Below are positions 45,129 through 49,685 of a stretch of 64,000 nt of DNA, piece by piece. Under the pieces are notes generated by a model, which searched no databases, was not told where the DNA came from, and worked only from the letters and a program-made list of their open reading frames with translations. The stretch lies in contig JAAZXM010000015.1 in assembly GCA_014240165.1 (NCBI GenBank), positions 1-64,000 of the forward strand, in the 5' to 3' direction. The position numbers were made by a program, and so were the translations under genes. Position 1 is the first letter of the stretch; every line of letters starts with the position of its first letter. This stretch comes from Myxococcales bacterium. Lineage in GTDB: Bacteria > Myxococcota_A > UBA9160 > UBA4427.

Positions 45129-47579
45129 GTGTCCCAGACCTCTCGCCCAGCCTCGGCTTCCACCCCTTTCGAGGGCAGTCTCGCGGCGCTCGTCCGCCCG
45201 CTGGAGTTTGCCGCGCGAGCGGGCGGGGAGGGGGTTGACCGCATTCCGGACCTGGAAGACAGGGCGGTTGCGGCCTGCCGGGCGCTCCAGCACTACAGCC
45301 TCCCCCTGGACCTGGTTGGTTTCTTCAAGGATCTGGAAGAACTCTTCCAGGAACCCCTGGAGGGCGAGAAGCGCCTCGAGCGTGTTCGCAGTGCCTGGGC
45401 CAGGCTGGCCCCTTTGCGCGAGCCCGGCTGGATGGACGCGCTGCTCGCCCGCCGCACCTCGGTTCTCCAGGGGGTCGGGGCCAAGCGGGCCGAGTCCCTG
45501 GCGCAGCGGGGGATCGGTTCGGTGGGAGACCTGCTCTTTCACCTGCCTTCTCGTTACGAGGATCGCCGCCGGCTCTCGCGAATTTCCGAACTCGAGGTTG
45601 GGCGGCGGGCCACCTTCATCGCCTCGGTGCTGGCGGTGGATTTCGTGGGTTCCCGGGCCGGTGGGCGGATGAGGCAGGTTCTCCAGGCCGTCGTGGGCGA
45701 TGACGGGGGAACCATCAATCTCAAGTGGTTTCGCGGAGGCGAGAGCATCGCGCGTAACCTCAAGCAGGGGGATCGGCTGCTCATCACCGGGGACGTGGCG
45801 CGTTACCGCTTTTCAAAGCAGATCGTTCACCCGGAGATCGAGCGGCTCGATGAGGCCGGAGGTCAGGGCGAAGAAAAGGCGGACGACGGCGAGGGCGAAG
45901 AGGTCCGCCAGGTGGTGCCGGTGTATAGCGCCCCGGAAAAAGTCAATCCGCGAACCCTGCGCCGACTGATTCAGAACGCGGTGGAGACCCATGCGGATTT
46001 GCTGGCGGGCTGGCTTCCGGCCAAGCTGGTGGCCGAGCGAAAGCTTCCCCAGGCCCCGGATGCCATTCGACAGGTGCATCGACCCGAGGTCGACGCGGAT
46101 GTCGATGTTTATTCGGCCCAGGTTTCCAGGGCCCATCAGCGGCTGGTCCTCGAGGAGCTCTACCTGCTGGAGGTGGGCCTGGCTCTTCGTCGGCAATTCC
46201 GGGGCCAATCGCCGGGCCGGCCCCTGGCTTCCCAGGGCGAGGCGCTGGATTCCGCGATTCGGGGTTTGCCCTTCGTCCTGACCGGGGCCCAGCAGCGCGC
46301 GTGGTCGGAAATCGCCGCCGACCTGGCCCGGCCCCATCCCATGCACCGGCTGCTCCAGGGGGATGTGGGGAGTGGAAAAACCGTCGTGGCGCTGCTGGCG
46401 GCGGTGGCCGCAAGCGCCAGCGGTGAGCAGGCGGCCCTGATGGCGCCCACGGAACTTCTGGCGGAGCAGCATGCACGGACCCTGGCGAGCCTGATGGCCC
46501 AGGCCGGGCCGGCGCTCGGCTTGCGTACGGCTCTGCTCACGGCTTCGCGGTCGGCCGCGGAAGGCGCGCGGATCAAGGCGGCCCTGCGGTCCGGCGAGAT
46601 CGATCTCGTGGTGGGGACCCATGCGTTGGTCCAGGACGATGTGCACTTTCAGCGCCTGGGCCTCGCGATCATCGACGAGCAGCATCGCTTCGGCGTTCGC
46701 CAGCGCGCGGCGTTGACCCGGCCGGGGGACGACGGCCTGCGCCCCCACGCCCTGCTCATGACGGCTACGCCCATCCCGAGAACCCTGGCTCTGACGGTCT
46801 ATGGTGATCTCGACGTATCCGTGATCGACGAGTTGCCCCCGGGCAGGGCACCGGTGGAGACCCATTTGCTGCGCGAGGGGGAAGGCGACCGGATCGTGGA
46901 GATCATCCGCGAAACCCTGGCCCGGGGCGAACAGGTCTACGTGGTCTATCCCCTGGTCGAGGAGAGCGAGAAGGTGGACCTGAGGTCCGCCCTGGAGTCC
47001 ACGGAGAAGATCCGGCGGGCCTTTCCCCAGGCCGAGGTGGGCATCGTGCACGGGCGCCTGGACGCCGGCGAGCGCTCCCGGGAGATGGACCGCTTCGTAC
47101 GCGGCGAGAGCCAGATCCTGGTGGCCACCACGGTCATCGAAGTGGGCGTCGATGTGCCTGCCGCAACCCTGATGGTGGTGGAACATGCCGAGCGCTTCGG
47201 GCTGGCGCAGCTTCATCAGCTTCGGGGTCGCGTGGGGCGCGGCGAGCGGCCCGGTCAATGCCTGCTGGTGGCCCGCGGCGGCGGCGAAAAGGGCGAGGCG
47301 CGTCTGCGCGCCATGCTGGACACCACCGATGGTTTCGTGATCGCCGATGCGGACCTCAAGATCCGCGGCCCCGGCGAGTTCATGGGGACGAGGCAGAGCG
47401 GTCAGCTGCCGGATCTGAGAATCGCCGACCTGGTGCGGGACTCGCGGTGGGTTTCGGTGGCGAGGGAGGCGGCCCTGGACACCGTGCGCAGCGACCCCGG
47501 GCTTCGCCGGGATGCGGGGCTGGCCCGGGCCGTGCGCGCGCGATGGGGCGACCAGCTTTCCCTGGTGGATGTGGGCTGA
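45129..47579 (+). CDS. recG: ATP-dependent DNA helicase RecG
   Basis: RLLQGDVGSGKTVVALLAA, IIDEQHRFGVRQR, LLMTATPIPRTLALTVYGDLDVSVIDELPPGR; GTG start. Confidence 0.96.
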   Translation: MSQTSRPASASTPFEGSLAALVRPLEFAARAGGEGVDRIPDLEDRAVAACRALQHYSLPLDLVGFFKDLEELFQEPLEGEKRLERVRSAWARLAPLREPGWMDALLARRTSVLQGVGAKRAESLAQRGIGSVGDLLFHLPSRYEDRRRLSRISELEVGRRATFIASVLAVDFVGSRAGGRMRQVLQAVVGDDGGTINLKWFRGGESIARNLKQGDRLLITGDVARYRFSKQIVHPEIERLDEAGGQGEEKADDGEGEEVRQVVPVYSAPEKVNPRTLRRLIQNAVETHADLLAGWLPAKLVAERKLPQAPDAIRQVHRPEVDADVDVYSAQVSRAHQRLVLEELYLLEVGLALRRQFRGQSPGRPLASQGEALDSAIRGLPFVLTGAQQRAWSEIAADLARPHPMHRLLQGDVGSGKTVVALLAAVAASASGEQAALMAPTELLAEQHARTLASLMAQAGPALGLRTALLTASRSAAEGARIKAALRSGEIDLVVGTHALVQDDVHFQRLGLAIIDEQHRFGVRQRAALTRPGDDGLRPHALLMTATPIPRTLALTVYGDLDVSVIDELPPGRAPVETHLLREGEGDRIVEIIRETLARGEQVYVVYPLVEESEKVDLRSALESTEKIRRAFPQAEVGIVHGRLDAGERSREMDRFVRGESQILVATTVIEVGVDVPAATLMVVEHAERFGLAQLHQLRGRVGRGERPGQCLLVARGGGEKGEARLRAMLDTTDGFVIADADLKIRGPGEFMGTRQSGQLPDLRIADLVRDSRWVSVAREAALDTVRSDPGLRRDAGLARAVRARWGDQLSLVDVG

Positions 47580-47610
47580 GGGCAGTTCAGCAGCGGGCTC
47601 AGGGTCTTTT

Positions 47611-47639
47611 TTGACTTGTCTCCCGGCTTCCTGTATCCA
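47611..47639 (+). promoter_or_regulatory. Sigma70-like promoter of leuL-leuA
   Basis: TTGACT-N17-TATCCA; predicted +1 around 47646-47649. Confidence 0.55.
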
Positions 47640-47648
47640 TGGCGCACC

Positions 47649-47720
47649 ATGCGTACGCGTCCCAACCGAAACCTGGGCCTCCTTGACCTCCTGCTTCTTA
47701 GCCAGGCGGGGGAGGCGTAG
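47649..47720 (+). CDS. leuL: Leucine-rich attenuator leader peptide, 23 aa
   Basis: ATG CGT ACG CGT CCC AAC CGA AAC CTG GGC CTC CTT GAC CTC CTG CTT CTT AGC CAG GCG GGG GAG GCG TAG = MRTRPNRNLGLLDLLLLSQAGEA; upstream of a terminator/antiterminator switch before leuA. Confidence 0.85.
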   Translation: MRTRPNRNLGLLDLLLLSQAGEA

Positions 47721-47775
47721 CGCCGGTCCATCTGCTTCGAGTCAGACCGAATCGAAGCCACTGAACAGGGACTCA

Positions 47776-47825
47776 AAAGCGCGAAGCCCTCTCCCGCCGA
47801 ATGGCCGGAGGGGGCTTCGCGCTTT
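47776..47825 (+). terminator. leuA leader attenuator terminator hairpin
   Basis: AAAGCGCGAAGCCCTCTCC / GGAGGGGGCTTCGCGCTTT, 19-bp stem (one GU), 12-nt loop; mutually exclusive with antiterminator 47705-47715 / 47788-47798. T-tract is short. Confidence 0.75.
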
Positions 47826-47945
47826 GGGGCCCGCTTCGCGCTGGGGATGGTTGCGCTTGATTTCTTTTGAGCGCCCCGACTCGGCGCCCTCCGGTTCATC
47901 GCGCGGGAGAGAGTCCACCGTGGAGAGCCCGGAGGAGAAGAAATC

Positions 47946-49685
47946 ATGTTCCGCGAAAAACGTGAAATGGGCGCCGTCCAGGCGGCCGGAAAGAGATCCG
48001 CGCCCGGGATGCGGGCGGAGGCCTACCGTCCCTATGCGCCCGTGGATCTGCCCGATCGTCGCTGGCCGGACCAAAGCCTGACGGCCCCGCCGCTCTGGTG
48101 CAGCGTCGACCTGCGCGATGGCAACCAGGCCCTCCGTGAGCCCATGGGCCCGGGGGCCAAGCGCCGTTTCTTCGATGCCCTGGTGGCGGTGGGCTTTCGC
48201 GAGATCGAGGTGGGCTTTCCCGCCGCGGCGCGAAGTGAGCGGGAATTTCTGCGTCAATTGATCGAATCCGAGGCGGTGCCCGAGGACGTGACGATCCAGG
48301 TGCTCACCCAGGCCCGGGAGGATCTGATCGAGCCCACCCTGGACGCGCTGCAGGGCGCCCAGCGGGCCATCGTGCACCTCTACAATTCGACGTCAACGCT
48401 CCAGCGCCGGGTGGTCTTCGGCATGGATCGGGCCGGAGTGATGGAGATCGCCCGGCGCGGTGCGGGCCTGATTCGCGAGCGGGCTGCGCGTATGCCCGAG
48501 ACCCAAATCACCCTGGAGTACTCACCCGAAAGCTTTACCGGGACCGAATTGGATTTTGCCCTGGAGATCTGCGAAGCGGTGGCGGAAGAGTGGGGGCCCA
48601 GTCCGGAGGAACCCATGATCGTGAACCTGCCCGCCACGGTCGAGATGGCCACACCCAATGTGTATGCGGACCAGATCGAGTATTTCGGTCGCCACGTGCG
48701 CGGCCGGGAAGCAATGATCCTCAGCGTGCATCCGCATAACGACCGGGGCTGCGCGGTGGCGGCGGCAGAACTCGCCCTAATGGCGGGCGCCGACCGTATG
48801 GAGGGCACGCTCTTCGGGAACGGCGAACGAACTGGCAATGTCGATCTCGTGACCCTGGCCCTGAACCTCTTCACCCAGGGCGTGGATCCCGGGCTCGACC
48901 TGTCGAAGATCGACGCGTTGGTGCAGACCTACACGGAGTGCACGGGCATGCCCGTACACCCGCGCCACCCCTACGCGGGGGAACTCGTTTTCACCGCGTT
49001 TTCCGGCTCCCATCAGGATGCCATCCGGAAAGGGCTGAAGGCGCATGCCGAGCATGGGAAAGCAGTCTGGGAGGTTCCCTACCTGCCGCTGGATCCCGCC
49101 CACGTGGGCCGGGGCTATGACGCCCTGGTCAAGGTCAACAGCCAGTCGGGTAAGGCGGGGGTGGCCTTCGTGCTCGAGCAGGATCACGGCTACTCGATTC
49201 CCCGGGCCATGCAGGTGGAGTTCCAGCGTGTGATTCAGAACGCGGCCGAAGCCACCGGGGGCGAGGTCGGGTCCGAGGGCATTCGTCGGCTCTTCGAGGC
49301 CGAATACCTGGCCTGGGGCGAGCCCATCGCGTGTTCCGTAGAGGCGTGCCGCTTCGACGAGGTGGCGGGCCCCGCTTGCCGCGTCCGGGGCGAGGCCTTT
49401 GCCCGAGGAGAGCGCCATGAACTGGCAGGGGAGGGCAACGGGCCCATCGATGCGCTCTTTGTCGCGCTCTGTGAGCGTTTTGATCTCTCGCTGTCGCTGG
49501 GCGATTACCAGGAACATGCGGTGGGCGCGGGTTCGGATGCGGTTGCTGCGGCCTACGTGGAGGTTTCCGATTCCGAGGGCCGTCGGTTTTTCGGTGCCGG
49601 TCGCCATTCCAGCAGCGTGGTGGCCTCGCTCCAGGCCGTGCTCTCGGCGGTGAACCGCTCCCTGGTCGCGCGTTCCGAGGCTTGA
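47946..49685 (+). CDS. leuA: 2-isopropylmalate synthase (LeuA2-type)
   Basis: WCSVDLRDGNQALREPMGPGAKRRFFDALVAVGFREIEVGFPAAARSE, HPHNDRGCAVAAAELALMAGADRMEGTLFGNGERTGN. Confidence 0.95.
   Translation: MFREKREMGAVQAAGKRSAPGMRAEAYRPYAPVDLPDRRWPDQSLTAPPLWCSVDLRDGNQALREPMGPGAKRRFFDALVAVGFREIEVGFPAAARSEREFLRQLIESEAVPEDVTIQVLTQAREDLIEPTLDALQGAQRAIVHLYNSTSTLQRRVVFGMDRAGVMEIARRGAGLIRERAARMPETQITLEYSPESFTGTELDFALEICEAVAEEWGPSPEEPMIVNLPATVEMATPNVYADQIEYFGRHVRGREAMILSVHPHNDRGCAVAAAELALMAGADRMEGTLFGNGERTGNVDLVTLALNLFTQGVDPGLDLSKIDALVQTYTECTGMPVHPRHPYAGELVFTAFSGSHQDAIRKGLKAHAEHGKAVWEVPYLPLDPAHVGRGYDALVKVNSQSGKAGVAFVLEQDHGYSIPRAMQVEFQRVIQNAAEATGGEVGSEGIRRLFEAEYLAWGEPIACSVEACRFDEVAGPACRVRGEAFARGERHELAGEGNGPIDALFVALCERFDLSLSLGDYQEHAVGAGSDAVAAAYVEVSDSEGRRFFGAGRHSSSVVASLQAVLSAVNRSLVARSEA

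Follow-up and report, generated by a model that had tools for sequence, protein, structure and literature searches.

A probable leader-peptide attenuator upstream of leuA in an uncultured order of Myxococcota

One of the questions raised by the DNA between recG and leuA in an uncultured member of the Myxococcota is whether expression of leuA follows the supply of charged leucine tRNA, and if so through what kind of switch. The locus lies within a 64-kb stretch of a metagenome-assembled genome, referred to here as the window, and the closest named relatives of the source genome are themselves metagenome-assembled genomes labelled Myxococcota or Myxococcales. A first-pass annotation had described a complete, classic leucine attenuator in this intergenic region. 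The relevant features are collected in Table 1, together with three similar leaders from elsewhere in the phylum. As discussed in the sections below, sequence comparison and folding indicate that leuA is very probably controlled by a ribosome-mediated transcription attenuator that responds to the charging of tRNA-Leu.

Table 1. Features of the recG-leuA region in the window, and leaders found before tRNA arrays in other genomes
Feature	Position	Strand	Remarks
recG	45129..47579	+	Upstream neighbour; bounds the intergenic region
-35-like box TTGACT	47611..47616	+	38 nt 5' of leader ATG
-10-like box TATCCA	47634..47639	+	Spacer of 17; ends 9 nt before leader ATG
Leader ORF MRTRPNRNLGLLDLLLLSQAGEA plus stop	47649..47720	+	Read directly; relatives have a Leu-rich ORF in the corresponding position
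Leu codon run, 7 Leu in 9 codons	47673..47699	+	Presumed stalling region; rare Leu codons enriched in leaders
Segment 1 (proposed by the first-pass annotation)	47677..47682	+	Pairs with 47711-47716; present here, poorly conserved
Segment 2 GGCGGGGGAGG, 5' strand of antiterminator	47705..47715	+	Inside the last leader codons
Segment 3 CCTCTCCCGCC	47788..47798	+	Pairs with segment 2 or with the 3' arm of the terminator
Terminator-type hairpin	47776..47825	+	Arms 47776-47794 / 47807-47825; 5' arm contains segment 3
leuA, yeast/actinobacterial-type 2-isopropylmalate synthase with LeuA_dimer domain	47946..49685	+	
Leader MTKSLTNAVFLLSPGLFSLLARGGVRA, Leu/Phe-rich (L198)	L198 588-1574 (G331:C216)		Before Leu(UAG), Phe, Leu(GAG), Leu(CAG), Leu(UAA), Leu(CAA)
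Leader MSSCRPNCILLSLELLLFVGLEGCM, Leu-rich with one Phe (L195)	G337:C64:19018-19167	reverse	Before Leu(CAG), Phe
Leader MNAHFTSPSSLYSASASLCLGAALSCSLLLDDVLEGIIGV, Leu/Ser/Cys-rich (L246)	G324:C1040:12033-12190	reverse	Before Leu, Ser, Cys, Ser, Ser

The leader and its competing helices

Direct reading of the sequence bears out the leader that had been annotated, an ORF of 23 codons that opens with the ATG at 47649, carries seven leucines within codons 9-17 and closes with TAG at 47718-47720. The leucine codons themselves are unusual. Over 27 loci, CTT, CTA and TTA together make up 76 of the 189 leucine codons in the leaders; in the leuA genes that follow, they make up 42 of 1274. The bias persists (42 of 135; Fisher p about 2e-23) once the last two leucine codons of each leader are set aside because of their overlap with a conserved CTTAGC stretch, and such use of rarer codons would fit the sensing of tRNA charging.

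Both of the mutually exclusive helices proposed for the leader RNA can be read directly as well. Segment 2 pairs with segment 3 over 11 bp, including one G-U, and the arms of the terminator-type hairpin pair over 19 bp, again with one G-U; inward of these lie a C.C mismatch (47795/47806) and then three further pairs (47796-47798 with 47803-47805). When folding of the stretch was compared with that of shuffled versions, the z score was -5.6 and none of 200 shuffles did as well.

Relatives retain these pairings. Segment 2 is complementary to segment 3 in all 35 of the loci analysed, and the pairing is present in 64 of 64 homologous elements, each with at least 9 of the 11 bp. The leader peptides mostly end in LLLxRAGEV/A or LLLxGAGGA, with another group ending in QREEVxFA, and it is these ends that spell segment 2. 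In an alignment of 32 elements, 96.3% of cells are paired in the antiterminator and 92.3% in the terminator, percentages that are favoured by having taken the structures from the window sequence; two-sided changes occur at three pairs of the former and at 13 of the 22 pairs of the latter. The covariation score of the antiterminator exceeds those of all 500 shuffles, which leave relatedness in, and also those of all slid versions, which are the fairer comparison. Across the 64 elements, the ninth position of segment 2 takes part in A-U, G-C or G-U pairs, and segment 4, the 3' arm of the hairpin, changes along with it. The two alternative helices thus both covary, as had been suggested as a check on the original reading.

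The 1:2 stem (GCCTCC/GGAGGC) that completed the annotated set fares less well: it is present in the window, but is poorly conserved, its columns pairing in 13 to 28 of the 32 relatives. A local hairpin, CCTGCT/AGCAGG, was considered in its place and set aside; 77% of its cells are paired, yet this is weak evidence because the hairpin sits in Leu-Leu coding sequence.

The nucleotides of segment 2 and of the hairpin are strongly conserved, and this might be read as the mark of a cis-acting RNA element that binds, for example, a protein or a ligand and works without translation of the ORF, the leucine run being a by-product. Such an element is very improbable here. The two alternative helices account for the conserved bases, while the linker is neither conserved nor constant in length; leucine runs, rare codons and promoter spacing (see below) are all kept in the leaders, and no Rfam family matches the element.

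Promoter-like boxes, distribution and the downstream gene

The boxes 5' of the leader recur in relatives at a characteristic distance from the start codon. Of 63 homologous leaders, 60 have TTGAC at 35-44 nt ahead of the start codon and 59 at 35-40 nt, a range that is partly selected, as the promoter script chose an in-frame start 32-46 nt past a TTGAC. The sharp mode of this distance, 38 nt in 27 of the 63 cases, was not among the script's selection criteria, and neither was the match at the -10 place, where TA is found in 57 of the 63 leaders, mostly 6-10 nt 5' of the start codon. In the window itself the -10 box is weak by consensus, and it was not picked up by a generic promoter scan; within the 64 kb, on either strand, only this site has a TTGAC, a TA at -10 and, 34-42 nt further on, an ATG opening an ORF of 10-60 codons. 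With some 6-9 nt between the -10 box and the point where transcription starts, the AUG would stand at or near the 5' end of the RNA, and the conserved spacing of TTGAC and the -10 box to the start codon makes it probable that the leader is translated leaderless.

The leucine run and the alternating stems are kept at homologous loci across the order and beyond, the very conservation whose absence would have spoken against the first-pass annotation. Nearly every locus of the genus, family and order with sequence available 5' of the yeast-type LeuA has a Leu-rich leader in the corresponding position. One locus (L008) is cut by a contig end and another (L026) has a poorer leader, LGLWLAKAGG. Of 80 genomes of the order, a covariance model built from 32 elements, whose training sequences match by construction, found the element in 70 at E<=0.001 and in 66 at E<=1e-11. 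In a phylum-wide draw 120 of 378 genomes matched, most of the matches outside the class being weak; the weak matches inspected elsewhere in the phylum proved for the most part to be ordinary terminators, a gene-end hairpin or a hairpin repeat. The element also extends to a sister family and to one further family. Outside the order, a leader, hairpin and downstream leuA are found together in four genomes of the same class (G346, G185, G148 and G160) and, with a poorer hairpin, in two of another family of the phylum (G292 and G303).

The element is present in one copy in the source genome, according to a genome-wide pattern search and the covariance model. Another genome, G011, has two copies (L155, G011:C181; L156, G011:C172), both at contig ends and so probably one locus split in assembly. 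A dispersed hairpin repeat in G272 is picked up by the inner part of the hairpin model at about 65 places spread over many contigs; its copies often form pairs of opposite orientation, separated by about 100-200 nt.

A hairpin downstream of recG, on the same strand, could in principle be no more than the terminator of that gene, with the ORF present by chance and leuA unregulated by either. This is hardly credible. The element tracks leuA across genomes, several times with a different form of LeuA, and it has promoter-like boxes of its own; together, its conservation and the covariation of its alternative helices rule out a chance ORF or a plain recG terminator.

The downstream genes encode more than one kind of LeuA. 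The window leuA product scores above the cut-off of TIGR00970 and includes the LeuA_dimer allosteric domain, as judged by family-model search. Other elements precede either this yeast-type LeuA or a shorter protein, of about 383-477 aa if the earliest possible start is taken, whose alignment to the window LeuA runs from about residue 56 to about residue 460. When one of the short proteins was compared with family models, its best match was to the first 386 of the 516 positions of a bacterial 2-isopropylmalate synthase model; it has HMGL-like and HCS_D2 domains and no LeuA_dimer. To judge from their length, the remaining short proteins would lack LeuA_dimer as well. With the element common to LeuA proteins that have the allosteric domain and short ones that, in the case tested, lack it, RNA-level control may stand in for feedback on the enzyme. 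The source genome also has a second LeuA, of bacterial type (G000:C77:42938-44404, L237; TIGR00973 above cut-off), upstream of which the covariance model found no element on contig C77.

How the switch would operate

The arrangement suggests the following course of events. Transcription would start at or within a few nucleotides of 47649, and a ribosome would begin on the leaderless 5' AUG. When leucyl-tRNA is scarce, the ribosome would stall in the leucine run (47673-47699) and leave segment 2 free to pair with segment 3 once the latter has emerged. This pairing would take up the half of segment 3 nearest the loop, from which the terminator is expected to nucleate, and with nucleation blocked RNA polymerase would read through into leuA. 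When leucine is plentiful, the ribosome would reach the stop codon (47718) and cover segment 2, the 3:4 hairpin would form, and transcription would end near 47825. Of 35 leaders, 23 have segment 2 beginning 16 nt ahead of the end of the stop codon, close enough for a terminating ribosome to be expected to cover it.

Folding of the nascent RNA, with a ribosome footprint assumed to reach 12 nt past the A-site codon, agrees with the two states that had been predicted. Before segment 4 is made, a ribosome at Leu9-Leu14 leaves the antiterminator with a mean pair probability of about 0.92, and a ribosome at the stop codon leaves none; with no ribosome at all, the nascent RNA still favours antitermination (0.72). 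Once segment 4 has been made, the terminator is favoured at equilibrium in every ribosome state, the isolated helices having energies of -23.0 kcal/mol for the antiterminator and -43.9 for the terminator. The decision must therefore be kinetic, taken during transcription.

Termination is the least secure step of this mechanism. The longest T run past the window hairpin is only 3 (UUU, at the end of the 3' arm), and runs of 2-6 follow the hairpins elsewhere in the order, which leaves intrinsic termination uncertain. The hairpin might then not be an intrinsic terminator at all, with the leader peptide instead controlling translation of leuA or the access of Rho; in one variant, stalling or the Leu-codon run would change how accessible the leuA ribosome site is, an effect proposed for the LEU element of actinobacteria. 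Precedent for this comes from the actinobacterial leuA leader, which is without a typical terminator (PMC8079986) and for which pairing with the leuA SD box has been described (PMC1262725). Even so, control of this kind is unlikely at the present locus, given that the conserved partner of segment 2 is an arm of the hairpin, not the leuA ribosome site, that the distance from hairpin to leuA varies from 65 to 267 nt across loci, and that T6-8 follows the hairpins of three members of a sister family.

Transcription attenuation remains the preferred reading, although the terms "classic" and "complete" in the first-pass annotation were too strong. The leader and the 2:3 and 3:4 helices stand; the U-tract of three, the poor conservation of the 1:2 stem and the probable leaderless start do not fit those terms.

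Related leaders and known attenuators

Similar leaders were also seen before other genes. In three genomes of another Myxococcota family (f22: G331, G337 and G324), a leader ORF and a terminator-type hairpin stand directly before a tRNA array, and the amino acids of the leader match those of the array (Table 1). ARAGORN supports the tRNA calls, as does Rfam for L198 and L246. Segment 2 is exactly complementary to its partner in G331 (GCGGAGGGG with CCCCTCCGC) and in G324 (CTGGAGGG with CCCTCCAG), and G337 has seven contiguous pairs of the 2:3 type. Since one genus accounts for two of the three genomes, and the model by which all of them were found is biased to this sequence, these cases are a lead and not a finding. 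Among the other loci examined in the family, mostly single Phe, Leu or Met tRNA genes, no further tRNA leaders were seen. It is conceivable, at somewhat short of an even chance, that tRNA operons too are under the control of leaderless leader-peptide attenuators in this phylum. A lack of one charged tRNA would in that case increase transcription of the tRNA genes concerned, and the leaders, if real, would feed the charging state of tRNAs directly back on transcription of their genes. A literature search, with most subscription papers outside its reach, found no leader-peptide attenuation of this kind described for Myxococcota, nor for tRNA operons.

Other amino acids appear in further leaders. 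Four loci (L167, L173, L174 and L182) have Trp-containing leaders (DWCW, TAWTVW, SWW) before homologous MFS transporters; their segment 2 and hairpin resemble those of the leucine element, and they are candidate tryptophan attenuators of a transporter. In another Myxococcota family, an Ile/Val/Leu-rich leader, LELIVGLLLLLVLLIGRAG (L201, G234:C34:272393-272542), has the same kind of segment 2 and hairpin, and the gene downstream, as read from its sequence, appears to be acetolactate synthase-like. Farther afield, Leu-containing short ORFs lie upstream of leuA in Alphaproteobacteria (L036, L038, L041, L068, L093 and similar loci; Sphingomonadales, Dongia and Ferrovibrio). They end in LLLRLTRP, SLRLxAPAx or LLLxxPIL and are probably other leucine leaders.

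The leu attenuator of enterobacteria (leuL), upstream of leuA, combines a run of leucine codons in the leader peptide with a terminator/antiterminator switch. The present element shares the leucine run, the arrangement of alternative helices and the place upstream of leuA. It differs in its probable leaderless start, in having segment 2 inside the leader codons, in its weak U-tract and in the type of LeuA downstream. The corresponding Rfam family, RF00512 (Leu_leader), gave no match at E<=1 in window positions 47000-49000, nor at the gathering score in relatives.

Actinobacterial leaders offer a second comparison. The LEU element is described as a pseudoknot with a base stem formed between Leu codons and the leuA SD box (PMC1262725), and the LeuL1 leader of Streptomyces lividans is on a leaderless transcript without a typical Rho-independent terminator (PMC8079986). 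A leader with a leucine run before leuA is common to these and to the present element, the leaderless start of S. lividans has a probable counterpart here, and the actinobacterial and present peptides end alike (MRFGLLLLSCRGEGL versus LLLLSRAGEV). Unlike the LEU element, the present leader has a covarying terminator/antiterminator pair, placed 65-267 nt before leuA, and unlike the S. lividans leader it has a covarying terminator-type hairpin, although one poor in U.

Mycobacteria provide a third. Their poly-Cys leaders are leaderless (Canestrari 2020, as cited in PMC13236596), and the ilvB1 attenuator uses a terminator/antiterminator switch (PMC13236596). Ribosome stalling on cognate codons, as proposed here, is the shared principle; amino acids, operons and phylum are different. 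Set beside these systems, the Myxococcota element probably extends leader-peptide leucine attenuation to an uncultured order, in a form that appears to combine a leaderless leader with a U-poor terminator.
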